Shown: positions 12,018 through 37,794 of the stretch, one piece after another
Layout: every line of letters starts with the position of its first letter
Position numbering within the stretch: position 1 is the first letter of the stretch
Assembly: GCA_949283695.1 (NCBI GenBank)
Contig: CASDTX010000038.1
Coordinates: 17,171-81,170, forward strand
Direction of reading: 5' to 3'
Length of the DNA: 64,000 nucleotides
Origin: an uncultured Eubacteriales bacterium
GTDB lineage: Bacteria > Bacillota > Clostridia > Lachnospirales > Lachnospiraceae
Notes under the pieces: model-generated
Database searches by the model: none
The model's input: only the letters and a program-made list of their open reading frames with translations
What the model was told of the DNA's origin: nothing
Made by a program: the position numbers and the translations under genes

Positions 12018-12023
12018 AAAAAG

Positions 12024-12062
12024 ACAGAGGACAAAAAAAGCACATCTTTTTTTGTCCTCTGT
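12024..12062 (+). terminator. Intrinsic terminator behind regulator remnant
   Basis: A perfect 17-bp stem contains GAGGACAAAAAAAG and is followed by T7. The hairpin behind the intact regulator (33760) has the same GGACAAAAAA core. Confidence 0.9.
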
Positions 12063-12141
12063 TTTTTTGTTGGAAAAAAAGAGTCTAAAACCGATGGCAA
12101 TTTAGGATAATTTGAAGAAAGTTTTTAAAGCCGCAGGCTCC

Positions 12142-12180: not shown

Positions 12181-13101
12181 ATGAAATTAGGATTTGTGAG
12201 CGCCATTCTTGACACATGGTCATATGAGGAAATGATGGACTTTGCGGCAGACAACGGATTCGAGTGCGTGGAAGTGGCATGCTGGCCGCAGGGAAAAGCG
12301 GAGAGAAGATACGCCGGAGTGAGCCATATCGATGCAGAGCGTGTGCTGGAAGATGACGAATATGCAAAGCATATCGCTGATTACAGCAAAGAGAAGCAGG
12401 TAGAGATCTCCTCTCTGGCATTCTATCCAAACACGATGGACGCAGATCTTGAAAAACGCGGGGCGTCCGTAACACACCTTAAGAACCTCATAAAAGCGAG
12501 CGCGAAGCTTCATGTAGGGATGGTGACCACCTTTATCGGAAGGGACCAGTCCAAGACCGTGGAAGAGAATCTGGAGCTGGTGAAGGAGGTATGGCCTCCG
12601 ATCATCAAAACAGCAGAAGAGTACGGGGTGAAGATCGGCATCGAGAACTGTCCGATGCTCTTCGGACCGGACCAGTGGCCGGGCGGACAGAACCTGATGA
12701 CTACGCCGAAGATCTGGCGGCAGGTGTTTGAGATCCTGGACAGCGACAATCTGGGAATCAACTATGACCCCTCACATTTCGTATGGCAGATGATCGATTA
12801 TATCAAGCCGATCTATGAGTTTAAAGACAAGATATTCCATGTACATTACAAGGATATCAAAGTATATCCGGACCGTCTGAACGACTGCGGCATCATGGCA
12901 TATCCGCTGGATTTCATGTCTCCGAAGCTTCCGGGTCTGGGCGATGTAGACTGGGGCAAATATGTCTCCGCGCTGACCGATATCGGATTCGACGGATATA
13001 CATGCATTGAGGTTGAGGACAAGGCGTTCGAGGGATCGAAAGAGAAGGTGGAAGATTCCCTCAGACTGAGCCAGAGATATTTAAAACAGTTCGTGATCTG
13101 A
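12181..13101 (+). CDS. Sugar phosphate isomerase/epimerase-type TIM barrel
   Basis: A 306-residue protein of the AP-endonuclease-2 / xylose-isomerase-like fold. It begins KLGFVSAILDTWSYEEMMDF. The metal-site regions are visible: GIENCPM, GINYDPSHFVWQ, FHVHYKDIK and CIEVEDKAF, giving Glu, Asp/His, His and Glu ligands. Homologues isomerise or epimerise keto sugars. It is the first gene of the locus, with GGAG 8 nt upstream, 92 nt ahead of a MocA dehydrogenase. Known C-glucoside gene sets of gut bacteria include a similar isomerase beside the deglycosidase. Its likely job here is to convert the 3-oxo or anhydro sugar product. Confidence 0.85.
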   Translation: MKLGFVSAILDTWSYEEMMDFAADNGFECVEVACWPQGKAERRYAGVSHIDAERVLEDDEYAKHIADYSKEKQVEISSLAFYPNTMDADLEKRGASVTHLKNLIKASAKLHVGMVTTFIGRDQSKTVEENLELVKEVWPPIIKTAEEYGVKIGIENCPMLFGPDQWPGGQNLMTTPKIWRQVFEILDSDNLGINYDPSHFVWQMIDYIKPIYEFKDKIFHVHYKDIKVYPDRLNDCGIMAYPLDFMSPKLPGLGDVDWGKYVSALTDIGFDGYTCIEVEDKAFEGSKEKVEDSLRLSQRYLKQFVI

Positions 13102-13193
13102 GGCTGCAAAGAAGGACAGCGGCAGGAACAAGAGGCAATCGAAATGATTACGCCTGGGGCGTAGCAAATAAAAAACAAAAAGGAGAAAGTATC

Positions 13194-14306
13194 ATGGGAA
13201 AATTAAAAGTGGCAATCGTAGGATGCGGAGGAATCGCAAATCAGAAACACATGCCGTCATTAAAGGCAAATGCGGACAAGGCTGAGATGGTGGCTTTCTG
13301 TGACATCATTCCGGAGCGCGCAGAGAAAGCAGCGAAAGAGTACGGCGCAGAAGGGGCCAAAGTCTATACGGATTATAAGGAAATGCTGGCAGATCAGAGC
13401 GTTGAGATCGATGTTGTGCATGTATGTACACCGAACGTAGCTCACTGCCCGATCACTGTGGCTGCATTTGAGGCGGGCAAGCATGTGATGTGTGAGAAGC
13501 CAATGGCTCATAATACAGAGGACGCGCAGAAAATGCTGGACGCATGGAAGGCTTCCGGAAAGAAATTCACGATCGGATATCAGAACCGTCTGCGTGACGA
13601 CACACAGACACTGCACGCTTCCTGTGAAGCCGGAGAGCTTGGAGAGATCTATTTCGCAAAGGCTCATGCGCTCAGGAGAAGAGCAGTTCCGACATGGGGC
13701 GTATTCCCGAACAAGGCGCTGCAGGGCGGCGGACCGCTGATCGACATCGGAACACACGCACTGGATATCACACTGTGGATGATGAATAACTACGAGCCGG
13801 CATCCGTATCCGGACAGGTATTCTACAAGCTGGGACGCCAGGCTGACGGACCGGAAGGAAATGTGTTCGGACCCTGGGATCCGGAGACATTTGAGGTAGA
13901 GGATTCCGCGTTCGGACTCATTAAGATGAAGAACGGAGCCACGATCTATCTCGAGGCATCCTGGGCACTGAATGTGCTGAAATCCATGGAGGCTTCCACA
14001 ACCCTGTGCGGTACAAAAGCAGGCGCTGAGATCCATCACGGCGGAAGCTATCCCCAGGATGAGCTGATCTACAATACAGTAGAGCACAATCAGCTGATGG
14101 AAAAGACGATCTCACCGGCAGGAGTCGTTGACTTCTTCGAAGGCGGAGCTGCAGCCGAGGCGGTGCGCGAGCAGACCCAGTGGCTGGATGCGATCATCAA
14201 TGACGGCGAGCCGCTCGTAAAGCCGGAGCAGGCATTTGTCGTAACACAGATCCTGGAAGCGATCTACAAATCAGCAGAGACAGGAAAAGAAGTGTTCTTT
14301 GACTGA
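13194..14306 (+). CDS. Gfo/Idh/MocA dehydrogenase (candidate C-glycoside 3-oxidase)
   Basis: The protein has 370 residues. The N-terminal Rossmann fold starts KVAIVGCGGIANQKHMPSL. The catalytic Lys102 lies in CEKPMAHN, and Asp184 and His188 lie in LIDIGTHALDI, the usual triad of the family. These NAD(P)-dependent enzymes oxidise a sugar hydroxyl. In puerarin-degrading gut bacteria (DgpA) a member oxidises C3 of the C-linked glucose so that the deglycosidase can act. The position directly before the beta and alpha subunit genes supports that role. A GGAG site precedes the ATG. The specificity and the exact pairing with the second dehydrogenase are inferred. Confidence 0.88.
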   Translation: MGKLKVAIVGCGGIANQKHMPSLKANADKAEMVAFCDIIPERAEKAAKEYGAEGAKVYTDYKEMLADQSVEIDVVHVCTPNVAHCPITVAAFEAGKHVMCEKPMAHNTEDAQKMLDAWKASGKKFTIGYQNRLRDDTQTLHASCEAGELGEIYFAKAHALRRRAVPTWGVFPNKALQGGGPLIDIGTHALDITLWMMNNYEPASVSGQVFYKLGRQADGPEGNVFGPWDPETFEVEDSAFGLIKMKNGATIYLEASWALNVLKSMEASTTLCGTKAGAEIHHGGSYPQDELIYNTVEHNQLMEKTISPAGVVDFFEGGAAAEAVREQTQWLDAIINDGEPLVKPEQAFVVTQILEAIYKSAETGKEVFFD

Positions 14307-14369
14307 TCTGCGTCTGCATCGGCAGACGTTCAGAGAAACAGCAGTTCAGCGAAAGAGGAGGAATGAATA

Positions 14370-14765
14370 ATGGCTGGCAGACAGATCTATCATCCGAACG
14401 GGTTTAAAAATATTGAGACAGACGGGAAAGTGACCGGGTTCGAATTTCAGTTCAAAGCGCAGTATTACCGCGGCATCACACTTTCCATCGTAAGAGATAT
14501 CAAAGTCAATGTAGACGGGGTGGATTATCCGAGGGAGTCCGTGAGATTTACGGTAAACGGCGAGACCTTCACTCTTGAAGAGATGCGGACAGTGGTGGAT
14601 CCCGACTACCGCTGGGAGTTCGGCGATTATGCGACAGTCTCTGTTCTGACAGAAGGCGGTCTTGCGAAAGGAAATCATCATATCAACACATTGCAGATCA
14701 TCGATCCGTCCTACATGCCGTTCCAGATCGAGGCGGTATGTGAGGCAGACTTTGTGATCGGATAA
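14370..14765 (+). CDS. C-glycoside deglycosidase beta subunit
   Basis: The protein has 131 residues and is rich in beta strands. Features include YHPNGFKNIE, FQFKAQYYRGI and VDGVDYPRESVRFTVNGETF, then a C-terminal IDPSYMPFQIEAVC. Length, composition and position match the small beta-sandwich subunit (DgpB/DfgB) that associates with the TIM-barrel alpha subunit in C-glycoside deglycosidases. The GAGGAGG site sits 8 nt upstream of the ATG and the stop is 12 nt before the alpha gene, so the two are surely coexpressed. It has no catalytic residues of its own that I can identify; in known complexes it shapes and stabilises the active site. Confidence 0.85.
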   Translation: MAGRQIYHPNGFKNIETDGKVTGFEFQFKAQYYRGITLSIVRDIKVNVDGVDYPRESVRFTVNGETFTLEEMRTVVDPDYRWEFGDYATVSVLTEGGLAKGNHHINTLQIIDPSYMPFQIEAVCEADFVIG

Positions 14766-14777
14766 GGAGGAGCGGAC

Positions 14778-15836
14778 ATGAGTTACGATATCAAAAGAAG
14801 CGTTTCCCTGTACAGTTATCAGGATGAATATTATAACAAACAGCTTGATCTGGAAGGATGTCTCAGAGAGACGGCAAAGACCGGGGCGACTGGCGTGGAA
14901 CTTCTTGCAGAGCAGATGATCCGCAGATTCCCCCTGCCCATCGAGGATGAGGCATTTCGTGAGCAGTGGTTCGAATGGCTGAAAAAATACAATCTTGAAC
15001 CTTCCTGCTACGATGCGTTCTTAGAGAACCACATTTATGACAACAGAATGCTCTCTCTCGGTGAGCAGATCAATATGATGAAGCGCGATATCCGGCTTGC
15101 ATCCATGCTTGGCTTCAAGAACCTCCGCACACTGGTGTCCACACCGATGGATGTGATCGAGGGAAGTCTGGAGTATGCAGAGCAGATGGATGTGCGGATC
15201 GGGCTGGAGGTACACGCTCCTTTCTCACTGAATTCCGGATGGGCAGAGGGGTATATGGAGATGATCCGCCGCACAGGCACGAAATATTTCGGATTCATCC
15301 CGGATATGGGTATCTTCTGTAAGAATATCCCGGATGTTCTCAGGGACAAGGCCAGAAGGATGGGCGCTTCCGAGGAGTGCATCAAGATCGTTGACGACGC
15401 GTATGCACAGAGGATCGAGAAAGGCTTTGTGAAGATCAAATATGATCTGGATCTGGGGAAAGCCAACATGGAATACCGGATGGCGAACGGCATGAAAGAG
15501 ATGATGGATGCAGTGAAAGCAGCAGGCGGCGGCCCGGCAGACATGATGTATGCAGGTTCCTCCTTTACCTACTCCTGGTCCGAGCCGCAGGACATCATCG
15601 ACAACATTGACTACATCTATCATACCCATGCGAAGTTCTACAATGTAAACGAAGATTATGTTGAGACGGCGGTGGCGATACCGGAGGTGATCGATGCCTT
15701 CAAGAAAGCCGGATACAAGGGATACTTAAGTTCTGAGTACGAGGGCGGAGAGCATCTGAGAGCAGACATGGAAGTGGACAGCATCGAGCAGGTGAGACGC
15801 CATCAGGAAGCGATGAGAAGAGCGATCGAAGGCTGA
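14778..15836 (+). CDS. C-glycoside deglycosidase alpha subunit (TIM barrel)
   Basis: A 352-residue xylose-isomerase-like barrel. Candidate metal ligands are Glu144 (GLEVHAP), Asp176 (IPDMGIF), His282 or His284 (YHTHAKF) and Glu320 (SSEYEGG). The nearby His146 may serve as base. Enzymes of this type (DgpC/DfgA) use a divalent metal to break the C-C glycosidic bond of 3-oxo-C-glucosides through an eliminating step, with the beta subunit. AAGGAGG precedes the ATG and the beta gene ends 12 nt earlier. The specificity, whether flavone, isoflavone, anthraquinone or another C-glycoside, is not visible. An O-glycoside 3-keto lyase role is the main alternative. Confidence 0.83.
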   Translation: MSYDIKRSVSLYSYQDEYYNKQLDLEGCLRETAKTGATGVELLAEQMIRRFPLPIEDEAFREQWFEWLKKYNLEPSCYDAFLENHIYDNRMLSLGEQINMMKRDIRLASMLGFKNLRTLVSTPMDVIEGSLEYAEQMDVRIGLEVHAPFSLNSGWAEGYMEMIRRTGTKYFGFIPDMGIFCKNIPDVLRDKARRMGASEECIKIVDDAYAQRIEKGFVKIKYDLDLGKANMEYRMANGMKEMMDAVKAAGGGPADMMYAGSSFTYSWSEPQDIIDNIDYIYHTHAKFYNVNEDYVETAVAIPEVIDAFKKAGYKGYLSSEYEGGEHLRADMEVDSIEQVRRHQEAMRRAIEG

Positions 15837-15860
15837 GAGCCTGAAAGGAAGGGCAGAGTT

Positions 15861-16910
15861 ATGGAGAAAATGAAATTGGGGATCGTCGGATTCGGTTTCA
15901 TGGGACACTGTGACGCGGACATGATGGCCACATTTGAGGATATCGACCTGGCGGCAGTGGCGGACACGAATCCAGAACAGCTGAAAGACGCGCCGGAAGG
16001 CGTAGAGACGTATGCGGACATTGACGAGATGCTGGCCAATGCGGATATCAATGTGGTGATGGTATCGACGCCCAATCCGAGTCATCCGGAGATGGTGAAG
16101 AAGGCTGCGGCGGCAAAGAAACATGTGATCTGCGAGAAGCCGGCAGCTATGAGTGTGGCTGAGTTTGACGAGATGACGGAGGCCTGCAGGGAAAATGGCG
16201 TGATCTTCACCGTGCATCAGCAGAGAAGGTGGGACACGGACTACCGGATCATGAAAGAGGTCTACGACAAAGAACTGGTGGGAGATATGTACATCATCAA
16301 ATCCCAGCTCTACGGGTTCAACGGAAACATGCATGACTGGCATGTGTACCCGGAGATGGGCGGGGGAATGCTCTACGACTGGGGCGTGCACCTGATCGAC
16401 CAGATGCTGGATCTGGTGAAGTCGGATATCGTATCCCTTTACGCAGATGTGCAGAATGTGATCAATGAGAAGGTAGACGACTACTTCAAGATCATCATGA
16501 AATTCGCAAACGGAGTGACCGCAGAGATCGAGCTGGGCACCTATTATCTGACGCCGAAGCGCGCATGGTTCATCGGCGGAAATAAAGGATCTGCGATCAT
16601 CGACGGTTTCGCAGGAGAAGGAAAGATCGTGCGCACGGCGCATCTTCTGGAAAATGTTCCCGGGAAGATCACCATGACAGCGGCGGGGCCGACCAGAAGT
16701 TTCGGACCGGCGGCTCCGGGACTGCTCCTGGAAGAGCCCCTTCCGGAAGTAAATGTCTCCCACAGAATGTATTTTGAGCATTTCTTAAAAGCGCTGCGGG
16801 GCGAGGAAGAGATCATCATCAAACCGGAGCAGGTAAGACGTGTGCTGTGCGTGATGGACGCAGTGAGAGAATCTGCGCGCACCGGAAAAGCCATCGAATT
16901 CGAGAAATAG
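15861..16910 (+). CDS. Second Gfo/Idh/MocA dehydrogenase
   Basis: The protein has 349 residues. The Rossmann motif is KLGIVGFGFMGHCDADMM, Lys93 lies in CEKPAAMS, and Asp173 and His177 lie in LYDWGVHLIDQM. It is clearly divergent from the 370-residue enzyme upstream, so the two probably act on different forms of the sugar, for example one oxidising the glycoside and the other reducing the released 3-oxo sugar. Known C-glucoside gene clusters also carry two such enzymes. The ATG follows GAAAGGAAG, 24 nt after the alpha subunit gene. Confidence 0.87.
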   Translation: MEKMKLGIVGFGFMGHCDADMMATFEDIDLAAVADTNPEQLKDAPEGVETYADIDEMLANADINVVMVSTPNPSHPEMVKKAAAAKKHVICEKPAAMSVAEFDEMTEACRENGVIFTVHQQRRWDTDYRIMKEVYDKELVGDMYIIKSQLYGFNGNMHDWHVYPEMGGGMLYDWGVHLIDQMLDLVKSDIVSLYADVQNVINEKVDDYFKIIMKFANGVTAEIELGTYYLTPKRAWFIGGNKGSAIIDGFAGEGKIVRTAHLLENVPGKITMTAAGPTRSFGPAAPGLLLEEPLPEVNVSHRMYFEHFLKALRGEEEIIIKPEQVRRVLCVMDAVRESARTGKAIEFEK

Positions 16911-16999
16911 AGAAAAGCTGGTATTGGAGAAAGCGGAAACAAAGGAAAAGAACCATAGATCAAGGAAGTACATAAAGAACGAAAAGTGAGGGAAAAACA

Positions 17000-18451
17000 A
17001 TGGCAGATTATGAAACGCAGATCGTTGTCATAGCGGCAGGACCGTCAGGATTGTCCGCGGCAGTTCAGGCGGCAGAAGACGGAGCGGAAGTCATCGTCCT
17101 GGAGAAAGCGGCAGCAGTCGGCGGCGCGGCGAACATGGGAATGGGTCCGCTTGGGATCGGAACAAAATATCAGAAACAGAACATGATCGATATCAGTGTT
17201 GAGAAAGCGTTCAACATGTTCATGGAGTACACCCACTACAATGTGGACGCCAGACTGGTGAAACGTTACTTCGAGCAGTCCGCGGAGACCATCGAGTGGC
17301 TCGAGGATCTGGGAGTCGAATTCGAGGGTGCGTTCCGCTACTTCCCGAAATCCGAGGCAACCTGGCATATCGTGAAGACAGATACGGGGATCGGACCGAG
17401 GGCGGCGTCATTTATGAACAAAGCACTGTACGCAAGGGCGCAGGAACTGGGCGTACAGATTCTCCTGGAAACACCGGCGAAGAAGATCCTTATGGAAGAC
17501 GGCAAAGTGGCAGGCGTTCTTGCCACAGATAAGGACGGAAAAGAGATCCAGATCTCCTGTAAGGCAGCCATCATCTGTACCGGAGGAGCAGGGTGCAACA
17601 AGCAGTTCATCCTGGATGAGACGGGCTATAAGCACGGGGAGGATATGTTCAACTTCGCGATCCCGGGCATTATGGGCGACGGCCTGAGAATGGCATGGGA
17701 GGCAGGCGCTGACAAGCTTCCGGTCCGGATCGAGCAGGCGGCAGCCATCGAAGGGACAGAGGACCTTCCGGGCAGCGTGGGGAACGTGATGAGCCAGCCA
17801 AACCTTCTGGTCAACTATCAGGGAAAGCGTGTGATGAACGAGGATCATATGCAGAATGCCACCTATCTCTCCAACGTGGTATCTCACCAGAAAGGCAGGG
17901 TATGCTTCAGCATCATTGATTCTTCCATCGCGAAATACTACATGAGAAACGGAGTGGATAATGTAAGTCTTGTGCGTCCGGATCCGGATGTGTCGGACTT
18001 CATAGACGGTGTGAAGATGGCACAGGAAAACGGGAACGAAGGACTGTTCATTGCGGACAGCATTGAGGAACTGGCAGAGATGACAGGCATCGATGTGGAC
18101 AATCTGGTGGATACCGTGGATGAATACAATGACTTCTGTGACAGCACGGATGAGGAATTCTTCAAGCCGAAGAAATACTTAAGACCGCTGGTAAAAGCAC
18201 CGTACTATGCGGCACGCATCCGTCCGGGCGGATACGGGACAGTAGGAGGCATCCGCATCAATGAAAACTGCGAGGCATGTGATAAGGAATTCGAACCTGT
18301 TCCGGGGCTGTACGCTGCCGGCGCGGACGCATGCAATATCTATGACGACAGCTATATGTTCCTGCTTCCCGGAAACTCTATGGGCTTTGCGGTGAACACC
18401 GGGCGGATCGCCGGGATGAGCGCAGCGGAGTACGTAGAAGACGAAGACTGA
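17000..18451 (+). CDS. Fumarate-reductase/ketosteroid-dehydrogenase-like flavoprotein
   Basis: The protein has 483 residues and no signal peptide. Residues 8-40 form the FAD Rossmann fold, IVVIAAGPSGLSAAVQAAED, with Ala12 where the first Gly of GxGxxG is usual. The C-terminus carries GGYGTVGGIRINENCEA and PGLYAAGADACNIYDDSYM, then LPGNSMGFAVNTGRIAG, the family's second FAD-binding block. Relatives reduce or introduce C=C bonds next to a carbonyl; tetrahydrodaidzein reductase of equol producers belongs to this flavoprotein class. Within this locus reduction of an unsaturated aglycone is a reasonable guess. The gene ends inside a small tandem repeat. Confidence 0.85.
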   Translation: MADYETQIVVIAAGPSGLSAAVQAAEDGAEVIVLEKAAAVGGAANMGMGPLGIGTKYQKQNMIDISVEKAFNMFMEYTHYNVDARLVKRYFEQSAETIEWLEDLGVEFEGAFRYFPKSEATWHIVKTDTGIGPRAASFMNKALYARAQELGVQILLETPAKKILMEDGKVAGVLATDKDGKEIQISCKAAIICTGGAGCNKQFILDETGYKHGEDMFNFAIPGIMGDGLRMAWEAGADKLPVRIEQAAAIEGTEDLPGSVGNVMSQPNLLVNYQGKRVMNEDHMQNATYLSNVVSHQKGRVCFSIIDSSIAKYYMRNGVDNVSLVRPDPDVSDFIDGVKMAQENGNEGLFIADSIEELAEMTGIDVDNLVDTVDEYNDFCDSTDEEFFKPKKYLRPLVKAPYYAARIRPGGYGTVGGIRINENCEACDKEFEPVPGLYAAGADACNIYDDSYMFLLPGNSMGFAVNTGRIAGMSAAEYVEDED

Positions 18452-18493
18452 TATACGGCGAGGACTGATATACGACGAGAAATGATATGCGAG
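18446..18493. repeat. Imperfect 17-bp tandem repeat spanning a stop codon
   Basis: GACTGATATACGGCGAG is followed directly by GACTGATATACGACGAG and then a shorter, mutated third copy. The first copy contains the stop codon of the flavoprotein gene. It looks like recent slippage. Confidence 0.8.
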
Positions 18494-18520
18494 AAGACCG
18501 GCTGAGAGCCGGCAGAGAAA

Positions 18521-18554
18521 ATCAGGGCGGATTTGGCATTGGATCCGCCCTGAT
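18521..18554. other. Strong hairpin within the operon
   Basis: A perfect 12-bp stem (ATCAGGGCGGAT with its complement, 10-nt loop) lies 21 nt before the MFS start. There is no T run on the plus strand, so it is more likely an mRNA stability or processing element than a terminator. Confidence 0.65.
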
Positions 18555-18575
18555 TCCAAAAAGGGGTGACAAATT

Positions 18576-19760: not shown

Positions 19761-19777
19761 TAAAGGAGGTTATTGTT

Positions 19778-21892: not shown

Positions 21893-21896
21893 AAGG

Positions 21897-23114: not shown

Positions 23115-23128
23115 CGTAAACTCTGGGA

Positions 23129-23506: not shown

Positions 23507-23585
23507 AGCAGTTCCTTTCCTCTCCGGCATCCCTGACTGACAGGGCAGAGCCGGAGATATACAAAAGATGTATTTCATAGATATT

Positions 23586-23614
23586 ACTATACCAAAAATG
23601 CAGTCTTCGGACAA
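23586..23614 (-). promoter_or_regulatory. Promoter of acpS
   Basis: Read on the minus strand, TTGTCC, a 17-bp spacer and TATAGT lie about 80 nt upstream of the acpS start. Confidence 0.7.
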
Positions 23615-23657
23615 TGCGCGTACCATTTTAAAATAAAAACACAGGAGGAAAACGAAC

Positions 23658-25400
23658 GTGGCAGAAGCAGAAAAAATATTGAAGACCGTTGATATGGACG
23701 GGGAGCAGGTGGAGATCTGGATGACCAAGATGATGTCCCCCTGTACAAAGGAAGAGTTCGAGGCCATGTCACTGGAAGAGAGAGAACATGCGAAGATCCA
23801 GCCGGCTCTCAACCAGCGCACCTACAGTCCGGAGGAGGGGATCATCTGTATGCAGGATGTGCCGATCACCATGCGGGACGGCGCGGTGATCTACGCAGAT
23901 ATTTACAAACCGGAAGCAGAAGGGAAATATCCGCTCATCATTTCCTGGAGCTTTTATGGAAAACGTCCCTTTGAAGGACAGGCCGAGTGGCAGATTATGG
24001 GTGTTCCGCCGCACACAGTATCCGATATGTCCAAGTTCGAGAGCCCGGATCCGGGATACTGGTGCCGTCACGGATATGCCATCGCCAATGTGGATCCGAG
24101 AGGGATCGGTCATTCCGACGGTGATTTCGTGCAGTTCGGAACACAGGATGGAAAAGACGGATACGACTTTATCGAGTGGGCGGCGCAGCAGGACTGGTGC
24201 AATGGACGCTGCGGGCTTGCAGGAAACAGCTGTGTGGCCATGACGCAGTGGAGGATCGCAGCCCAGCAGCCGCCGCATCTGACCTGTATCGCACCGTGGG
24301 AGTCCACAACTGATATGTACAGAGAGTCTCTGTGTGAGGGCGGCATTCCGGCGAAGACATTCGTTGCCTTTGTCATGAGGGAGGCCTGCGGTCCCAATTA
24401 TATCGACAACACACCGATGAATCTGGAGAAATATCCTTTCGTCAACTGTACCTACTGGAAAGACAAAGAGCCGGATTTCTCCAAGGTAAAGATCCCGGTA
24501 TACCAGACCGCGTGCTGGAACCATTTCCATCTGCGCGGGTCCATCAACGCGTTCCGCAAATGCAAGTCCCGACGCAAATGGCTCCGGGCTCACCGTAATT
24601 TTGAGTGGCCGGACGCATACAGCAATGAGAATATCCAGGATCTGGAGAAGTTCTATGCCAGGTATCTGAAGCTTGAGAGGAACGGCTGGGAGCTGACGCC
24701 AAAGGTCCGTATTGAAGTGCAGGACACCGGAGAGTTCAATTATCAGACCAACCGTCCGGAGGAGGCGTTCCCGCTCAAGCGCACGAAATATGAGAAACTG
24801 TACCTCAACGCTGCGGACAATTCCATGCAGACAGAGCCGGTGAGCGAGGCGGCGAAGGCAGTGTACGACAGCCAGACCGGAGAAGTGTGCTTTGACTATA
24901 GATTCGAGGAGGACACAGAACTGACTGGCTACCTGAAACTGCGCCTTTACGTGGCAGCGGAGAGCTACAACGATATGGATCTTTTCATCAATGTGCAGAA
25001 ATTAAGCACAACGGGAGAATTCCTGCCTATCACGCTGTTCGGAGAAGCGCATCCGGGGGTATGGGGCAAGATGCGTGTCTCCAGAAGGAAGCTGGATGAA
25101 AAGCTGTCCACAGACTACTGCCCGGTGCAGGCTCACACATGCGAGGAGAAACTTGAGCCTGGTCAGATCGTACCGGTGGATATCGAGATCGTTCCTACCA
25201 GCAGGTTCTTCCATAAAGGACAGCAGATCCGAGTGCAGATCGCAGGACGCTACATCCGCGGAGACTGGTTCGAGCCGCTGACATGGGATACAGACAACAA
25301 AGGGAACCATATCATCTATACCGGCGGGGAATACGAGTCATACCTGCAGATCCCGGTGATCCCGCCCAAATTCCAGGATGGGGATATCATTATCCGTTAG
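23658..25400 (+). CDS. CocE/NonD-family (X-Pro dipeptidyl-peptidase type) hydrolase
   Basis: The protein has 580 residues. Residues 65-330 form the alpha/beta-hydrolase domain: VPITMRDGAVIYADIYKP, then ANVDPRGIGHSDG and GLAGNSCVAMTQW with the probable nucleophile Ser191. Residues 350-580 form the jelly-roll cap (CocE C-terminal domain). Family members cut esters or amides, for example cocaine esterase. There is no signal peptide, so it is cytoplasmic. The GTG start has AGGAGG 8 nt upstream. It stands 35 nt ahead of the carrier protein gene, suggesting that it hydrolyses an acylated glycoside or an acyl-carrier intermediate. The substrate is unknown. Confidence 0.88.
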   Translation: MAEAEKILKTVDMDGEQVEIWMTKMMSPCTKEEFEAMSLEEREHAKIQPALNQRTYSPEEGIICMQDVPITMRDGAVIYADIYKPEAEGKYPLIISWSFYGKRPFEGQAEWQIMGVPPHTVSDMSKFESPDPGYWCRHGYAIANVDPRGIGHSDGDFVQFGTQDGKDGYDFIEWAAQQDWCNGRCGLAGNSCVAMTQWRIAAQQPPHLTCIAPWESTTDMYRESLCEGGIPAKTFVAFVMREACGPNYIDNTPMNLEKYPFVNCTYWKDKEPDFSKVKIPVYQTACWNHFHLRGSINAFRKCKSRRKWLRAHRNFEWPDAYSNENIQDLEKFYARYLKLERNGWELTPKVRIEVQDTGEFNYQTNRPEEAFPLKRTKYEKLYLNAADNSMQTEPVSEAAKAVYDSQTGEVCFDYRFEEDTELTGYLKLRLYVAAESYNDMDLFINVQKLSTTGEFLPITLFGEAHPGVWGKMRVSRRKLDEKLSTDYCPVQAHTCEEKLEPGQIVPVDIEIVPTSRFFHKGQQIRVQIAGRYIRGDWFEPLTWDTDNKGNHIIYTGGEYESYLQIPVIPPKFQDGDIIIR

Positions 25401-25434
25401 GAGCAAAGCTAGAAGAGAAAAAGGAGAGACAAAA

Positions 25435-25674
25435 ATGAGAGAAGACGTTTTAAAAAAGATCATTGAGAAGGCAAGCAAGATTTGGAATGTAGCTGAGGCG
25501 GAATTAAGCGAAGAGACTGCATTTGCCTCCCTGAACCCGAAATCCGTGCACTATTCACAGATGACCACATACCTGGAAGATGAGTTTGACGCGGAAGTGC
25601 CGTATCTGAACTTCAAACGCTGCAAGACATTCGGCGAGGCAGCAGATTATGTTGCGGAGCTTCTGGACGAGTAG
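25435..25674 (+). CDS. Acyl carrier protein (unusual Ser context)
   Basis: A 79-residue acidic four-helix protein. The expected phosphopantetheine site is Ser37 in LNPKSVHYSQM; most carrier proteins have Asp-Ser-Leu here, so the Lys before Ser and Val after it are unusual. Helix 3 carries YLEDEFDAEVPY and the end is FGEAADYVAELL, typical of ACPs. AAGGAGA lies 7 nt upstream. Placed between a CocE hydrolase and Ptb/Buk, and with acpS nearby, it is probably a pathway-specific carrier and not the fatty-acid ACP. If Ser37 is not modified, it might be a scaffold only. Confidence 0.87.
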   Translation: MREDVLKKIIEKASKIWNVAEAELSEETAFASLNPKSVHYSQMTTYLEDEFDAEVPYLNFKRCKTFGEAADYVAELLDE

Positions 25675-25681
25675 AGAATCT

Positions 25682-25770
25682 GCTTAAGCGCATAAAAACG
25701 AAAAGGGACAGCCCGGCTTTCTGAAAGAGGTCTGTCCCTTTTCGTATCGGCGTACAGAAGGCGCTTAAGC
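25682..25770 (+). terminator. Nested hairpin after ACP gene
   Basis: The inner 13-bp stem is ACGAAAAGGGACA (25698-25710) with its complement at 25733-25745. An outer pair, GCTTAAGCGC and GCGCTTAAGC, encloses it. The T run is short, so termination may be partial, with readthrough into ptb. Confidence 0.7.
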
Positions 25771-25817
25771 GCCGGGATACAAAGTAAAATGCACTAAGGT
25801 GAGAAAGGACTGCGGAT

Positions 25818-26819
25818 ATGAATACATTTATCAGGACAATGACAGAAAAAGCAAAACTCGCGCCCAAGCGCGTGGCGTTCGCGGAGGCGGGAAACATCGA
25901 TATCCTGCGGACCGCGCAGGAGACGGCGGCATCGGGGATCGGATTCCCCGTGCTGCTGGGGCAGCGGGAGACCATTGAAGCTCTGGCAGGGGAGAACGGT
26001 ATTTCTACAGAAGGATTTACGTATTTTGACTATACGGATGAAGCAAACCGACTGGCCCTGGCTGAAGAGTATACTGCCCGGTATGAAGACTTTTCGGCGA
26101 AAGCGGTGGCCAGAAAGACGAAAGATCCGCTGCGCTGTGCGATGTTCCTTCTGAAACTGCACAGAGCGGACTGCGTGGCAGCAGGAAAAGAGTATTCTAC
26201 AGGAGATGTGATCTTTGAGGCCATCAGCATCATTGGGATGCAGGAGGGCGTGGAGAGCGTATCCAGTCTGGGGATCGCGGACATCCCGGGATTTGAGGGG
26301 CCGCAGGGAAGTATGCTGGGCCTGGCGGACTGCGCCATCAACGCTCAGCCGGATGCCAAAGATCTGGCGGGGATCGCGATCTCATCCGCGGACACGGCGA
26401 AGAAACTTCTGGACTGGGAGCCAAGAGTGGCTATGCTGGCATTTTCTACCTGCGGAAGTTCAGAGCATGAAAGCCTGGAAGTGATCAACGAGGCCGTGGA
26501 GCTTGTGCGGAAGATGCGCCCGGATATCAAAGTAGACGGAGAATTTCAGCTTGACTCCGCGATCATTCCGGCTGTGGCCGCACGCAAAGTCAGACGTGAG
26601 AGCGAGGTGGCAGGAAAGGCCAATATCCTGATCTTCCCCAATCTCCATGCGGGAAATATTGGGGTGAAGCTGATCCAGATCTTCGGACATGCCAACGCTT
26701 ACGGCCCGGTACTTCAGGGATTTGCCCAGCCGGTATGCGATTTCTCAAGGAGTGCACCGGTAGAAGAGATGCTGGGAAATGTGGCAATGCTGGTGATCCG
26801 TGCTGCGGCAGAGGATTAG
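25818..26819 (+). CDS. ptb: Phosphate acetyl/butyryltransferase
   Basis: The protein has 333 residues, close to the usual size of phosphotransbutyrylase. Features are KRVAFAEAGNIDILRTAQE at the start, DCVAAGKEYSTGDVI, and FSTCGSSEH with VDGEFQLDSAI near the active site, then FPNLHAGNIGVKLIQIFG. The enzyme swaps CoA for phosphate on a short acyl group. It is followed 25 nt later by a butyrate kinase gene, as in ptb-buk operons of clostridia. Its place inside a catabolic locus rather than beside butyryl-CoA synthesis genes suggests an acyl group derived from the degraded compound. Confidence 0.9.
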   Translation: MNTFIRTMTEKAKLAPKRVAFAEAGNIDILRTAQETAASGIGFPVLLGQRETIEALAGENGISTEGFTYFDYTDEANRLALAEEYTARYEDFSAKAVARKTKDPLRCAMFLLKLHRADCVAAGKEYSTGDVIFEAISIIGMQEGVESVSSLGIADIPGFEGPQGSMLGLADCAINAQPDAKDLAGIAISSADTAKKLLDWEPRVAMLAFSTCGSSEHESLEVINEAVELVRKMRPDIKVDGEFQLDSAIIPAVAARKVRRESEVAGKANILIFPNLHAGNIGVKLIQIFGHANAYGPVLQGFAQPVCDFSRSAPVEEMLGNVAMLVIRAAAED

Positions 26820-26844
26820 AACTGATAAGAAAGAGGAAAGAAAG

Positions 26845-27984
26845 ATGAAACCATACAAGATATTTACGATCAATCCGGGATCCACATCAACGAAGATCGC
26901 TCTGTTTGAGGGCGAAGAAAAGGTGTTTTCCGCCAACGTCAGCCATGATGCTAAGATCCTCGCGCAGTTTAAGACGCCCAATGAACAGCGCCCTTACCGG
27001 GAGGAAACCATCCGGGCGCTGCTGGAAGAGAACGGGATCTCCATGGACGGTCTGGACGCCTGCGTGGGACGGGGCGGCGGCCTTCTGTCCATGGAAGGAG
27101 GGACTTATGAGATCGACGATCTGATCCTGAATCACTCTTCGGAGTGCGCGAACGGTGTTCAGCACCCGGCCAATCTGGGACCGGGACTGGCGAAAGAATT
27201 CGCCGACCGGTACGGGGCGAAAGCCTATGTGGTCAACCCTCCGGATGTGGACGAGCTTCAGGATCTGGCAAGGATGACGGGGATCAAAGGCGTTTATCGG
27301 GTGATCCACCTGCATGCTCTTAATTTAAAAGAAACAGCAATCCGACATGCCGCATCCATGGGAAAGGCGTATGAGGACTGTAACTTCATCGTCTGCCACA
27401 TCGGCGGGGGCATATCCGTATCTGCCCACAGAAAAGGCAGGATGATCGATGGGTTCGATATTGTGGGCGGAGAGGGCCCTATGGCACCGACGCGCTGCGG
27501 AAGTGTGGCTGCGGCAGATCTTCTCCGCTACTGCGAGGGAAAAGATCTCAGAGAAGTAAAGAAGCTCTGCACGAAGAACGGAGGCTTTGTCAGCCACACC
27601 GGGATCTCAGACGCTCTGGAGCTGACAAAGCGGGCTTCGGCGGGCGATAAGTATGCCGGGATGCTGTGGAACACCATGATCTATCAGATCGGCAAATGCA
27701 TCGGTTCTATGGCCGTGGTTCTGGAAGGGCATGTTGACGGGATCCTGCTTGGCGGCGGAATGGTGTACAATGAAGAACTGGTCCGGAAGCTGGAAGACAC
27801 CTGCGGCTGGATCGCTCCAGTTACTGCCTATCCGGGTGAATTCGAGATGGAGGCCATGGCAGCGGGAGCGCAGCGTGTGCTCTCCGGCAAGGAGACGGCG
27901 AAGAAATATCCAGGCGTCAGCCGCTTTCAGGGGTTTGACTTTGAGAAGCAGGAAAATCAGACAGGAAGGGAGAGGGAGCGTTGA
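26845..27984 (+). CDS. buk: Butyrate kinase
   Basis: The protein has 379 residues of the acetate/butyrate kinase family (ASKHA fold). KIFTINPGSTSTKIALFE is the phosphate-binding strand, CHIGGGISVSAHRKGRMID the adenosine site, and GILLGGGMVYNE a late conserved loop. It makes ATP from an acyl phosphate. The ATG at 26845 has GAGGAAAG upstream. It overlaps the start of the following MFS gene by 4 nt, so the two are translationally linked. Substrate chain length cannot be read from sequence; branched or aryl acids are possible. Confidence 0.92.
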   Translation: MKPYKIFTINPGSTSTKIALFEGEEKVFSANVSHDAKILAQFKTPNEQRPYREETIRALLEENGISMDGLDACVGRGGGLLSMEGGTYEIDDLILNHSSECANGVQHPANLGPGLAKEFADRYGAKAYVVNPPDVDELQDLARMTGIKGVYRVIHLHALNLKETAIRHAASMGKAYEDCNFIVCHIGGGISVSAHRKGRMIDGFDIVGGEGPMAPTRCGSVAAADLLRYCEGKDLREVKKLCTKNGGFVSHTGISDALELTKRASAGDKYAGMLWNTMIYQIGKCIGSMAVVLEGHVDGILLGGGMVYNEELVRKLEDTCGWIAPVTAYPGEFEMEAMAAGAQRVLSGKETAKKYPGVSRFQGFDFEKQENQTGRERER

Positions 27985-29132
27985 GCAGTGCGAAGAAACT
28001 AAAGGTCATCATCACGATCATATGTATTTCATTTATCCAGGGGCTGCAGTTCTGCGTGTCCCCGGTCCTGGGCCCCATCCAGGAGCATTATCCGGAGGCC
28101 GGAGTGAGCCTGGTGCAGATGCTGGTGACCGTGCCTACATTTCTCTCCATCGTGGTAGCGGTGATCTCAGGCTGGCTGGTGGTGAAGGTGAGCAAGAAAA
28201 AGATGCTCATCTTCTCGGGAGCAGTGGCGGGGATTACGGGTTTTCTTCCCTTTCTGGCAGATAATTTCTGGCTTCTGTTTGCCTCGAGGACACTGTACGG
28301 CGTGGCGCTGGGACTGTGCATCGCGCTCAACACGGCTGTGGTGGCGGAATTTTTTGAAGGAAATGAGAGGGTACGTGTTATGGGGATCCAGGCGGCGAGC
28401 GTGGGAGCAGGAATGGTCCTGGTGACTACGCTGGGCGGCGTGCTGGGAGCCGGAGACTTCCGCAATGCCTACTATACGAACGTGATCGGCTTTATTGCCA
28501 TGGTGCTGATCGCGTTCTGTTTGCCGGAGACGGGCACCGTGAAGGTGGAGAAGAACGAGAAGATCGAACTGAACAGGACGGTGTTCACTACAGCTTTCCT
28601 CGGTGTCCTGGAGATGCTCTTTCTGATCACATTCTCCACCAATATCGCCCTGCATTTAAGCGGCGGCCTGGCGGGGAGTACTACCGTGTCAGGGAATCTG
28701 ACAGGGATCTTCTCCGCTGCGCAGATCGTGATCGGGCTGGTGTTGGGGACGGTGACGAAGATCACGAAGAAGTATACGCTTCCCGCAGCTATGCTATGCT
28801 TCAGTGCGGGCGCAGTGCTTCTGATCCTGTTCCCGTCCAATTACGTGATGCTTATGATCGGCGCGGTATTCTGCGGATTTTCACAGGGAATGTTCATCCC
28901 CACAGCTATGGTTGATGTGTCCAATGCTGTGACTCCGGCATCTACGGCGATGGCGGCGGCCTGCATGACCTGTGGGAACTGCTTCGGACAGCTGATCTCG
29001 CCTACCGTGATGAACACGGCGGCAAAGGCGGTGTTCGGCACAGTGACAACGACGAACGTATATATCCTGGCAGCGGCCGGGATGACCATATCTGCGCTGG
29101 CGGTGATTGCGGCAAAGGCGCGGAAGAAATAA
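27981..29132 (+). CDS. MFS transporter B of the locus
   Basis: A 383-residue paralogue of the carrier at 18576. The first helices read ISFIQGLQFCVSPVLGPIQE, the loop 2-3 motif is SGWLVVKVSKKKM, and TLYGVALGLCIALNTAVV forms helix 4. It starts with TTG overlapping the buk stop codon (TTGA), the only visible start with a usable ribosome site (GGAGAGGGAG). The coupling with buk suggests that it moves a compound linked to the acyl branch, possibly exporting an organic acid; that is inference. Confidence 0.88.
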   Translation: MSSAKKLKVIITIICISFIQGLQFCVSPVLGPIQEHYPEAGVSLVQMLVTVPTFLSIVVAVISGWLVVKVSKKKMLIFSGAVAGITGFLPFLADNFWLLFASRTLYGVALGLCIALNTAVVAEFFEGNERVRVMGIQAASVGAGMVLVTTLGGVLGAGDFRNAYYTNVIGFIAMVLIAFCLPETGTVKVEKNEKIELNRTVFTTAFLGVLEMLFLITFSTNIALHLSGGLAGSTTVSGNLTGIFSAAQIVIGLVLGTVTKITKKYTLPAAMLCFSAGAVLLILFPSNYVMLMIGAVFCGFSQGMFIPTAMVDVSNAVTPASTAMAAACMTCGNCFGQLISPTVMNTAAKAVFGTVTTTNVYILAAAGMTISALAVIAAKARKK

Positions 29133-29153
29133 TATTGATCGAAGGAGGACGTT

Positions 29154-31124
29154 ATGAGAGCAAGAAGCTGCAAAGGAAAAGAAAAATACCCTCATCTTTT
29201 TTCCCCGCTCCGCATCGGGAATATCAGGATGAAAAACAGGATCATCGCGGCGCCCACAAGCCCAAGCATGATCACGGCAGAGGGGCACTTCACCCCGGAG
29301 ATGACCGCCTATCTGGAAGAAAAGGCAATGGGCGGCGCGGCAGTCGTGACTTACGGAGAGGCGATCGTGCACTCCGCTACAGGGAAGTCTCACAATAAGC
29401 AGCTACAGCTGGATTCTTTCGGCGTAAAGCAGGGAATGGCGCAGACGGCGCGGGCCATCCACAACGCAGGCGCATACGCCAACATCCAGCTCTCCCACGG
29501 CGGGAAATACGGCGGGCTGACCAGTGTGGGCGGAGATCAGGACAAATGTGATACAGCATACGGCCCGAGCCATGAGATCACGCCTGTGGGGGAAGTGCAG
29601 GAGATGCCCAGGGAAATGATTCTGGAGATCGTGGAATCCTACAAAAAGAGCGCGAAGCTGTGCAGAGACTGCGGGTTTGATATGGTCCAGGTGCATGCGG
29701 CGCATGGCTGGCTGTTTTCCCAGTTCCTCTCTCCGGTGTTCAATCAGAGAAAGGATGAGTTCGGAGGAAGTCTGGAGAACAGGGCAAGGTTCCTCTTGAT
29801 GGCTCTGGACGCGGTGAGAGAGGGCGCAGGCCCGGACTTCCCCATCGAGATCAGACTTTCGGGAGACGATCTGACAGAAAACGGCCTGGGGCTGGAGGAC
29901 TGCGTGAAAGTGGCGCAGATGGCAGATGATAAGGTGGACCTGATCAATGTCTCCTGCGGAAACCATGAAGACCCGGATATGTTCTGCCGCACACACCCAT
30001 CTGCCTTTTACCCCCGTGGGGTCAACGTATATCTGGCGGCAGAGATTAAGAAACATGTGAAGACTCCGGTGGCCTGCGTGGGATCGCTGAACGACCCGGC
30101 ACAGATGGAAGAGATCATTGCTTCCGGTCAGGCAGATGTGGTAGAGATCGGACGAGCTCTTCTGGCAGATCCTTATCTGCCGGACAAAGCGCTGCATGGA
30201 TGCGCAGAGGATATTACACCATGTCTGAGATGCTACGAATGCTTCGGGGAGACGGGAAAGAGTGAGACGGTGAAATGTTCAGTAAATCCTACGATGGGCC
30301 AGCAGCTTCCGGAGAAATATCCGCGGCAGGCGCCCAAACGGAGCAAACGGGTCCTGATTGTCGGCGGAGGTCCGGCCGGGATGCAGGCAGCTGTCACTGC
30401 GGCGAAAAGAGGACACAAAGTGACGCTTGCCGAACGCGGGGAACGTCTCGGCGGCAATCTGTACGCAGCAGGAGCTCCGTTTTTCAAGAAAGACATCGCT
30501 GACTTCTGTGAAGTGATGAAAAAGCGGGTGGAAAAGTCAGGGGCGGAGATCATTCTGAACACGGAAGTGACGCCAGAGTGGATCACGGAGTTTGATCCGG
30601 ATGCTCTGATCATCGCAATCGGTTCCAGAGAGATAAAGCCCCTGATCAAAGGGTTGGACAGAGAGAATGTCGTCATGGCTGCCGAGGCTGAGCTTCATCC
30701 GGAGAAACTGGGAAGAAGAGTCGTCATCATGGGCGGCGGACTGGTCGGCACGGAGGCAGCGGTCTCCTTTGCGCATGAAGGGAAGGAGTGTGCGGTGATA
30801 GAGATGAAAGACGCTGTGGCGTCCGATGCAAATTCATTCTACCGCGGCGGTCTGATGCCGGAAGTGGAGCAAGCGGCAAAGCTCTATGTGAATACAACGG
30901 TCAAAGAAGTTCTGGAAGACGGTGTGCTCTGTGAGCGGGAGGGAGAGACTTTTAAAGTAGAGGCAGATACCGTAGTATGTGCTTTGGGATACCGGGCGCC
31001 GTATGCAGAAGTGGATGCTCTTGGCGGGACTGTGGATGAGACTTATATCATCGGAGACTGTACAAATGTGGGTCTGATCTATCACGCGGTGAACCAGGCA
31101 TATTATACGGCGATGCGTTTATAA
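29154..31124 (+). CDS. Old Yellow Enzyme family NADH:flavin oxidoreductase with Fe-S and FAD domains
   Basis: The protein has 656 residues. Residues 15-345 form the FMN TIM barrel (FSPLRIGNIRMKNRIIAAPT, then VQVHAAHGWLFSQFLSP). The [4Fe-4S] motif CLRCYEC plus a fourth Cys in TVKCSVNP follows, as in trimethylamine dehydrogenase and 2,4-dienoyl-CoA reductase. The C-terminus has FAD (VLIVGGGPAGMQAAVTAAKR) and NAD(P) (VVIMGGGLVGTEAAVSFA) folds. The class reduces activated C=C bonds and includes BaiCD and the daidzein reductase of equol producers. As last gene before the regulator, it may reduce the freed aglycone. Strong family call, unknown substrate. Confidence 0.9.
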   Translation: MRARSCKGKEKYPHLFSPLRIGNIRMKNRIIAAPTSPSMITAEGHFTPEMTAYLEEKAMGGAAVVTYGEAIVHSATGKSHNKQLQLDSFGVKQGMAQTARAIHNAGAYANIQLSHGGKYGGLTSVGGDQDKCDTAYGPSHEITPVGEVQEMPREMILEIVESYKKSAKLCRDCGFDMVQVHAAHGWLFSQFLSPVFNQRKDEFGGSLENRARFLLMALDAVREGAGPDFPIEIRLSGDDLTENGLGLEDCVKVAQMADDKVDLINVSCGNHEDPDMFCRTHPSAFYPRGVNVYLAAEIKKHVKTPVACVGSLNDPAQMEEIIASGQADVVEIGRALLADPYLPDKALHGCAEDITPCLRCYECFGETGKSETVKCSVNPTMGQQLPEKYPRQAPKRSKRVLIVGGGPAGMQAAVTAAKRGHKVTLAERGERLGGNLYAAGAPFFKKDIADFCEVMKKRVEKSGAEIILNTEVTPEWITEFDPDALIIAIGSREIKPLIKGLDRENVVMAAEAELHPEKLGRRVVIMGGGLVGTEAAVSFAHEGKECAVIEMKDAVASDANSFYRGGLMPEVEQAAKLYVNTTVKEVLEDGVLCEREGETFKVEADTVVCALGYRAPYAEVDALGGTVDETYIIGDCTNVGLIYHAVNQAYYTAMRL

Positions 31125-31206: not shown

Positions 31207-31254
31207 CCATAAAAATGCTGCAGCAGCATGGATGTTCATAAAAGGAGACGCAGT

Positions 31255-37792: not shown

Positions 37793-37794
37793 TA

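Follow-up and report, generated by a model that had tools for sequence, protein, structure and literature searches.

A Lachnospiraceae locus that may couple cleavage of C-glycosylated polyphenols to ATP formation through a dedicated acyl carrier protein

Introduction

Why should genes for the cleavage of C-glycosides lie beside genes for an acyl carrier protein (ACP) and an acyl kinase? The question is raised by positions 12181-31124 of a 64,000-nucleotide stretch (hereafter the window) from an uncultured Lachnospiraceae bacterium, whose draft genome (G000) comprises 2.9 Mb and is 79% complete. A first-pass annotation had named a C-glycoside deglycosidase (CGD) core, two flavoproteins, an iron-sulfur (Fe-S) pair, a CocE-family hydrolase, an ACP with its synthase AcpS, a phosphotransacylase, a butyrate kinase (Buk) and two carriers of the MFS family, and Pfam and NCBIfam searches recovered every one of these parts where it had been placed. 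It knew of no described pathway that joins them. The searches made of open-licence PMC papers, at the level of titles and beginnings of abstracts, yielded no apparent description of an ACP-CocE pair or of acyl-ACP-based ATP formation in polyphenol breakdown.

Our answer, which we put forward tentatively, is that these genes form an island for the catabolism of C-glycosylated plant polyphenols, most likely C-glucosides of flavonoids or dihydrochalcones, in which CocE would cleave an acylphloroglucinol onto the ACP and the phosphotransacylase and Buk would then make ATP. Published anaerobic flavonoid breakdown goes via phloretin hydrolase, which frees the acyl group as an acid so that the energy of the bond is lost; the route proposed here would be a variant that keeps it. 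A wholly new mechanism is at stake only in a bolder form of the proposal, which is possible but more speculative still: a substrate-level phosphorylation of undescribed form, in which an S15 serine enzyme breaks an acyl-aryl C-C bond onto a dedicated ACP (of which one or two copies are fused to it in one clade), ATP is made by a phosphotransacylase with an acyl kinase, and the whole is plugged into different polyphenol pathways across several phyla. The ACP-linked step appears to be widespread in bacteria and undescribed. If the proposal is true, carrier-coupled cleavage with a yield of ATP would explain why anaerobes of gut, rumen, soil and sediment invest in degrading polyphenols, the four genes would serve as a marker set for it, and the ACP would be a rare instance of a carrier serving catabolism for ATP.

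A proposed acyl-transfer module built on a divergent ACP

The proposal centres on cocE (23658-25400, plus strand), whose product carries Peptidase_S15 and PepX_C domains (PF02129, E = 6e-37; PF08530, E = 9e-35; TIGR00976, 207 bits) with Ser191 as nucleophile, and which we propose as the acyl transferase to the ACP. In an alignment of 84 members of its clade, Ser191 was kept in 83 of 83 rows (one row is gapped), and His289, His291, Arg310, His312, Glu316 and Asp319 were invariant in 84 of 84. The following gene (25435-25674, plus strand) encodes a divergent ACP, which the NCBIfam ACP model matches at 2e-7, under its cut-off, and PF00550 does not match. Its AlphaFold model (pLDDT 93) has the four-helix carrier fold, with Ser37 of a K-S-V motif opening helix II (residues 37-51), and solved carrier proteins made up most of the top 50 rows of a Foldseek search with this model, at modest E-values of 3.5e-4 to 6.6e-3. 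All 82 ACP domains have the carrier serine, preceded by lysine in 73 and by arginine in 9 instead of the usual aspartate of the D-S-L motif. A dedicated holo-ACP synthase gene, acpS (23129-23506, minus strand; TIGR00556, 3e-19, above cut-off), completes the carrier set. Since the host genome holds a second AcpS copy on contig C18 and four PP-binding matches, none of which is the window ACP, this ACP/AcpS set is extra to lipid synthesis.

Two enzymes of acyl-phosphate metabolism follow on the plus strand. The first (25818-26819; PF01515, 1.5e-85) had been called Ptb, a name that we dropped on its score: the Ptb model TIGR02706 gave 79 bits against a cut-off of 410.5, and the phosphotransacetylase model PRK09653 gave 264 bits, likewise under its cut-off of 310, which places the enzyme nearer to Pta/EutD. 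The second (26845-27984) is a butyrate kinase-family acyl kinase whose TIGR02707 score of 375 bits exceeds the cut-off of 289. No CoA-acylating enzyme was found among the annotated genes of the locus.

ACP and CocE are partners across phyla

Named genomes were scanned with a seven-row CocE alignment and the best 80 of 447 confirmed relatives were kept; all counts out of 80 refer to these loci, with flanks of about 10 kb, and counts of neighbouring genes (Pta, Buk, AcpS, reductases and others) depend on the thresholds chosen. Loci fetched around CocE or core genes carry L numbers, and genomes of a sample of 250 from the host's family carry G numbers. An ACP gene lay within 300 bp of cocE in 55 loci, was fused to it in 14 and stood elsewhere within 10 kb in 3; it was not found in the remaining 8 (L049, L057, L072, L073, L079, L095, L099 and L112), in one of which, L073, cocE lies at a contig edge. 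The fusions, nine of which have two ACP domains ahead of CocE, carry Ala/Pro-rich linkers in their N-terminal parts, and among the fused proteins scanned the Pfam PP-binding model scored 28.1 bits in L092 (cut-off 20.8) and a weak 18.9 bits, under the cut-off, in L108. Together, 14 natural fusions and 55 adjacencies show a partnership of ACP and CocE.

Pta was present in 65/80 loci, Buk in 67/80, both in 64/80 and AcpS in 53/80. The full set was seen in Bacillota, Actinomycetota, Chloroflexota, Spirochaetota and Acidobacteriota, and the ACP-CocE pair also on a short Thermodesulfobacteriota contig. These data show ACP-CocE-Pta-Buk to be the conserved engine of the locus. The acyl genes had earlier been described as a branch that makes ATP; a Pta-like enzyme paired with Buk would indeed most naturally recover energy from an acyl phosphate, but the acyl genes belong to the engine rather than to a side branch. 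As a control, loci around other S15 matches (L010-L032) showed no ACP, Pta or Buk; this control is weak because the loci span only about 2-4.5 kb and two of them, L010 and L011, adjoin CGD genes.

Two further arrangements were noted among the relatives. Twelve drafts labelled Bacilli or Mycoplasmatota (L088, L089, L101, L103, L105-L107, L109, L111, L115, L117 and L118) keep ACP-CocE-Pta-Buk together with a protein of about 147 amino acids (cluster c11; the one scanned had no Pfam match), and neither a flavone reductase (FLR) type gene nor a homologue of the window's FAD flavoprotein (FADred, described below) was found in their flanks at the thresholds used. In a Dehalococcoidales locus (L099, 3803-8334), three FLR-like paralogues and a FAD reductase adjoin an ACP-less CocE.

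Deglycosidase and reductase genes tend to stay with the module

Upstream of acpS, nine genes on the plus strand with gaps of at most 124 bp form a first unit (12181-23114). It opens with a xylose-isomerase-like TIM-barrel protein (12181-13101; PF01261, 3.3e-37), a sugar-side enzyme kept beside the core at 88-91% identity in two other loci (L127 and L128). A GFO/IDH/MocA oxidoreductase (13194-14306; PF01408, 1.4e-32) is a candidate glycoside 3-oxidoreductase whose DgpA-like role is suggested by the published Dgp and Dfg systems; it is followed by the deglycosidase beta subunit CGDB (14370-14765; PF19906, 2.4e-40, 137 bits, cut-off 27.6), directly 3' of it the alpha subunit CGDA of the AP_endonuc_2 family (14778-15836; PF01261, 3.5e-12), and a second GFO/IDH/MocA oxidoreductase (15861-16910; PF01408, 2.5e-27). 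Next come the fumarate-reductase-like FAD ene-reductase FADred (17000-18451; FAD_binding_2, PF00890, 9.9e-48), for which the best NCBIfam model was the vinyl phenol reductase VprA at 290 bits, under its cut-off of 600, and MFS carrier 1 (18576-19760; PF07690). The Fe-S pair closes the unit: a protein with domain matches to the NuoG/HydA-N type and to a GltD-like FAD/NAD(P) electron-input part (19778-21892), whose start is preceded by a ribosome-binding site, and a NuoF-derived protein (21897-23114; PF10589, 4e-17; Fer4).

The grouping of a CGDB-family beta subunit, an AP_endonuc_2 alpha subunit and a GFO/IDH/MocA oxidoreductase is that of DgpABC and DfgABE from Dorea sp. PUE and Eubacterium cellulosolvens; unlike in those systems, the core here runs on into reductases and, past the divergent acpS, into CocE-ACP-Pta-Buk. 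In the available text of a study of Catenibacillus C-deglycosylation (PMC11170127), the terms CocE, acyl carrier and butyrate kinase do not occur.

Beyond acpS, a second unit runs on the plus strand from cocE through acp, the Pta-like gene and buk to MFS carrier 2 (27981-29132) and an OYE/2,4-dienoyl-CoA-reductase-type Fe-S flavoprotein (29154-31124; PF00724, 2e-64). The two carriers are 33% identical to each other, in line with the paralogy proposed for them. The genes had been described as nearly all codirectional, which holds except for acpS; being on the minus strand and divergent from cocE across about 150 bp, it excludes a single transcript and splits the locus into at least two transcription units. 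We therefore rejected the whole locus as one operon.

Does this split mean that the C-glycoside/reductase operon (12181-23114) lies by chance beside an unrelated acyl module that acts on another substrate (23129-31124)? Besides the divergence of acpS and cocE, each block can be found alone: the acyl block without a core within 10 kb in L042, L045, L046 and L054, and the first block without the acyl block in L127 and L128, where the window's first unit recurs without CocE at 60-95% identity (genomes G036 and G148). Separate places in related genomes had been named in advance as an argument against the coupling, and this is partly what is seen. Yet the blocks re-associate repeatedly and in varied orders: in Lacrimispora (L043 and L044) the deglycosidase core comes after the acyl module, whereas it comes first in the window, and other orders occur in L050, L052, L053, L055 and L058. 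In L055, CGDB-CGDA-CocE-FADred-NuoG-NuoF-ACP form one run with gaps below 300 bp, an order that L052 shares except that a larger gap follows CocE. Given this re-association and the genome-level associations below, an unrelated pair of neighbours is very unlikely. The recurrence of the first half in G036 and G148, and of ACP-CocE-Pta-Buk in most of the 80 loci, also shows the locus to be more than a chance assembly.

FLR-type genes stood near CocE in 24/80 loci, FAD reductases in 21/80, NuoG/GltD in 18/80, the NuoF-like gene in 12/80, CGDB in 10/80 and OYE in 8/80, and CGDB was found in 9 of 18 other loci of the window's own CocE clade versus 1 of 62 elsewhere. Linkage of the blocks also finds support at genome level, where CGDB was strongly associated, without phylogenetic correction, with CocE and with the NuoF-like protein. 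For the latter we used 15 hand-chosen family genomes with long or adjacent matches, including G144 and G164, whose partial matches adjoin modules, and leaving out G154, although its trio adjoins a gene for the phloroglucinol-pathway cyclase DPGC: CGDB occurred in 10/15 of them versus 9/235 of the others, and DPGC in 8/15 versus 4/235. With the two partial-match genomes removed, the values were 9/13 and 8/13. Deglycosidase core, flavoprotein/Fe-S trio and acyl block thus tend to stay together, and the earlier claim that they belong together stands for their joint recurrence, albeit not as one transcript.

Proposed route from C-glycoside to ATP

From this gene content and linkage we infer the chemistry, its direction and its substrate. 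In a first step modelled on the published Dgp and Dfg systems, the GFO/IDH/MocA enzymes would oxidise the sugar, and CGD alpha and beta would cut the C-C bond of the 3-oxo-C-glycoside and free the aglycone. An FLR homologue together with the OYE-type flavoprotein, the FAD flavoprotein or both may then reduce the aglycone and open it into a phloretin-like ketone of the acylphloroglucinol type, the FAD flavoprotein being fed with electrons by the NuoG/GltD- and NuoF-like pair. The NuoF-like protein carries Fe-S domains at its C-terminus but matches the FMN-binding domain only weakly and in part (PF01512, 2e-4, under cut-off), so NAD(P)H probably enters through the GltD-like part of its partner. 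In the third step AcpS would load the ACP with phosphopantetheine, and the serine enzyme CocE would cut the acyl-aryl C-C bond, passing the acyl group to the ACP while phloroglucinol leaves. Finally, the Pta-like enzyme may move the acyl group from the ACP to phosphate, from which Buk would form ATP and a free arylpropionate. The CocE-ACP route would thereby stand in for the phloretin hydrolase step and keep the bond energy. Such chemistry is plausible because the ring of phloroglucinol amounts to a 1,3-diketone in masked form, and ketones of this kind, when cleaved by thiolysis as in the thiolases, leave a thioester.

The reductive part of this route is outlined by flavone degradation through FLR, flavanone-cleaving reductase (Fcr) and phloretin hydrolase (Phy) in Flavonifractor plautii and Eubacterium ramulus, whose step order the proposal shares. 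The FLR homologue lies just beyond the interval (33916-34878, plus strand); its 320-residue product aligns over residues 1-288 with solved FLR (7d38-7d3b; E = 9.7e-39), of which 7D38 is listed as the FLR-chrysin entry in PMC7862272, and flavone C2-C3 reduction is its predicted activity. The OYE-type flavoprotein is a candidate Fcr by class, in a comparison that did not include Fcr itself. Published Fcr turns naringenin into phloretin without chalcone isomerase (CHI), according to PMC8398226, and CHI is reported as dispensable in PMC11868195 and PMC8398226. The window differs from the FLR-Fcr-Phy system in that its host has no Phy match and CocE-ACP, with conservation of ATP, is proposed instead.

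In another version, built on the first-pass annotation, aglycone reduction by the two flavoproteins would follow the pattern of equol formation, and the acyl branch would do no more than regain ATP from side acids via CoA. At superfamily level both flavoproteins do match the classes of the equol reductases. Nothing extends the analogy beyond class, with no sequence comparison made to the named equol enzymes, and we rejected it at any finer level; the nearest solved relatives of FADred are fumarate reductases and those of the OYE-type flavoprotein are NCR (6qkg) and 2,4-dienoyl-CoA reductase (1ps9). The lack of a CoA-acylating enzyme among the annotated genes, the tie of ACP to CocE by fusion and adjacency, and the FLR homologue and phloroglucinol-type genes, which point to flavone-type rather than daidzein-to-equol chemistry, make this version improbable.

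How would the proposed relay compare with other acyl-handling systems? As in the Ptb-Buk butyrate pathway, a phosphotransacylase is followed by butyrate kinase, but the window enzyme is nearer to Pta/EutD and its proposed donor is an acyl-ACP, not butyryl-CoA. Citrate lyase and malonate decarboxylase use catabolic ACPs and likewise have a dedicated carrier in a breakdown pathway; we know of no acyl passage from these carriers to phosphate and ATP, and the partner in the window is an S15 hydrolase. The Friedel-Crafts acylase PhlACB (5m3k, 5mg5) moves an acyl group to or from a phloroglucinol carbon; its fold is unrelated to that of CocE, and it serves biosynthesis. In G036, the place of CocE-Pta-Buk is taken by a different set: the same deglycosidase-reductase operon leads (L127, 15584-17587) into a further ACP, a protein of thiolase fold that has PhlC among its solved relatives, and a zinc-ribbon partner of the ChsH2 type. 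The thiolase-fold protein is closer to 7yvy (5.5e-29) and 4yzo than to PhlC (5m3k, E = 1.7e-25), and by homology this set is possibly a different acyl-transfer system with its own ACP.

Phloroglucinol genes beside the module

A clue to the substrate comes from loci in which the module adjoins genes for a cupin, an SDR, a 3-hydroxyacyl-CoA-dehydrogenase-type protein, a PF04199 cyclase and a BKACE-type protein, found in Defluviitaleaceae (L061), Dehalococcoidia (L066) and Acidobacteria (L116). These match the phloroglucinol set PGR, TfD, DPGC and TAL of Clostridium scatologenes, as given in PMC10470551; the Fig. 8 legend of that article names PAT, AK, CtfAB and DAPG_hydrolase, where PAT and AK may include genes of the Pta and Buk kind, and its section 12 names no ACP-CocE pair. 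Identity to the L061 proteins was 39% in L066 and 72% in L116 for DPGC, 48% and 43% for TfD, 35% and 33% for TAL, and 61% and 52% for the cupin. The closest solved relative of the L061 SDR is 5g4k (E = 1e-114), which we take to be a phloroglucinol reductase. The L066 BKACE-type protein scored 409 bits with the model for 3,5-dioxohexanoate:acetyl-CoA acetone transferase, whose cut-off is 430. Since a search of solved structures gave nothing for the cyclase at 1e-5, its identification as DPGC draws on family and cluster.

A fourth case is Anaerobium acetethylicum (L052), in which CGD genes, CocE, ACP, AcpS, Pta, Buk, FADred, NuoG, NuoF, FLRs and the phloroglucinol set lie on one contig (contig C41 of G110, 60.7 kb) with all matches on one strand; 900 bp between the fetched pieces are unseen. 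Its FLRs are 86%, 87% and, for the third, 39% identical to the window FLR, and its phloroglucinol proteins are 73% (DPGC), 58% (PGR), 55% (TAL), 49% (TfD) and 75% (cupin) identical to those of L061. Homologues of the Clostridium scatologenes set thus stand by the module in L061, L066 and L116 and on the Anaerobium module contig. In three family genomes without CocE in the fetched stretch, reductase genes have similar company: NuoG-NuoF adjoins phloroglucinol genes in G050, NuoG-NuoF-FADred adjoins DPGC in G154, and the trio lies near TAL in G021. In the L051 genome the phloroglucinol set has a Phy gene nearby, together with an OYE-type gene of 39% identity; a supposed location of its DPGC on the module contig was dropped, as the contigs differ in length (101,015 versus 207,249).

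DPGC and Phy were screened in 50 of the 80 CocE-locus genomes (46 with ACP, 4 without), a hand-picked, non-random set of mostly long contigs with one locus per genome. DPGC at E<1e-80 was present in 16/50 of these (18 at 1e-20), and in 14/46 of those with ACP, versus 12/250 family genomes (Fisher P = 2.5e-7 and 1.8e-6, respectively); like the other associations, these compare genomes of many phyla with a baseline drawn from a single family and count every genome as independent, without phylogenetic correction.

The same relay from CocE to ACP, acyl phosphate and ATP might serve a different cut, with CocE acting not on a C-C bond but on an acyl bond such as that of an ester or amide (hydroxycinnamoyl esters and acylated glycosides are examples), and with a substrate that varies by clade. 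S15/CocE proteins are ester and amide hydrolases, 3ib3, the nearest solved relative of the window CocE, is a CocE/NonD hydrolase, and 51/80 loci have neither FLR nor FADred in their flanks at the thresholds used (29/80 have one or both). Phloroglucinol-type genes by the module in three phyla and the enrichment of DPGC would, however, be unexpected for a plain ester cleaver, and a typical oxygen ester is less energetic than a thioester. We regard this alternative as rather unlikely.

A reverse flow is also conceivable, in which Buk phosphorylates a carboxylic acid with ATP, the Pta-like enzyme loads the ACP, and CocE acylates or detoxifies a polyphenol or other acceptor, analogous to fatty acid kinase with PlsX. 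FakAB-PlsX does connect acyl-phosphate with acyl-ACP, according to PMC10146087. The neighbours of the module are catabolic, however (deglycosidases, reductases, phloroglucinol-type genes, MFS and, in L074 and L079, DctP-type transporters), and Pta with Buk usually forms ATP in fermenters. The reverse flow is distinctly unlikely, and we keep to ATP-forming cleavage of acylphloroglucinols.

Limits of the acylphloroglucinol proposal

Several observations weigh against this proposal. Regarding the enzyme, the position that we take to be the usual site of the triad Asp is occupied by His289 in 84 of 84 clade members (in the ten outgroup rows the commonest four residues are P4, E3, H1 and S1), which makes the chemistry of CocE uncertain; the AlphaFold model of CocE, built from a 7-row alignment, was too poor to be used for the triad (mean pLDDT 44). 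The known phloretin hydrolase lies outside the S15 family. All 14 fusions fall into a single clade (SH-aLRT 100) and so represent one fusion event, two of the ACP-less loci, L049 and L072, adjoin a deglycosidase core, and in the close relative Mediterraneibacter glycyrrhizinilyticus (L041, 12162-14404), which has a CocE with 93% identity to the window's, no buk was found between pta and the MFS2 gene at the locus, the only part of the genome searched.

Regarding the substrate, the PGR-like SDRs of L066 and L116 are only 35-36% identical, and the TAL-like proteins 33-35% identical, to those of L061. DPGC had no match in the 79% complete host genome, in which respect the window departs from the Clostridium scatologenes system; the host may therefore excrete the ring, or the ring may differ. 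Strong DPGC matches are lacking in 34 of the 50 CocE-locus genomes, so the substrate is not phloroglucinol-type everywhere, and none was found in those small Bacilli genomes with ACP-CocE-Pta-Buk that were tested; the DPGC-negative module genomes thus hint at further substrates. Of the four ACP-module genomes in the family sample, only one has DPGC (G110; P = 0.18), and the association of CocE with DPGC in that sample (4/7) comes mostly from ACP-less CocE genomes (G021, G224 and G230; 3/3 with DPGC), all of which also have Phy.

Replacement of Phy by the module is likewise no more than suggestive. The 79% complete host genome has no match to Phy (DAPG_hydrolase, PF18089), and the window CocE belongs to S15. 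PF18089 matched in 17/250 family genomes, strongly (E<1e-50) in 10/250, and strongly in 8/50 CocE-locus genomes. Among DPGC-positive genomes, with Phy counted at E<1e-50 and a weak match in G154 omitted, Phy occurred in 9/11 family genomes without the ACP module versus 6/14 with ACP-CocE (P = 0.10). As Phy and module coexist in those 6 of 14, we rejected strict replacement. Four genomes, three of them metagenome-assembled, have the module on the same contig as the phloroglucinol set, and none of these had a Phy match; this fits replacement but does not prove it.

Genes flanking the locus

A stem of 20 bp with a T tail at 12021-12065 is a candidate terminator upstream of the locus. It is preceded by a short open reading frame (11646-12017) that resembles the C-terminus of the AraC-GH39 regulator (43% tblastn match at this place in L135) and appears to be a remnant. 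Between the OYE-type flavoprotein and the FLR homologue lies a gene for an AraC + GH39-like regulator (31228-33717, plus strand; PF12833 and PF01229), kin of which stand near 7/80 module loci, and the FLR gene is followed by a GPH-family glycoside symporter gene (34900-36291, plus strand; TIGR00792, 307 bits, above cut-off). Further upstream, at 7007-11412, two related PAS/HTH_22-type regulators (46% match) flank a RidA-like open reading frame, recognised by eye, an MFS gene and an aminotransferase gene, probably a separate amino-acid cluster. On the other side, positions 36492-42441 encode a regulator of the GntR type that includes a periplasmic-binding domain, followed by genes for sugar ABC transport and, downstream, a GH125 alpha-mannosidase, which probably form a separate locus.

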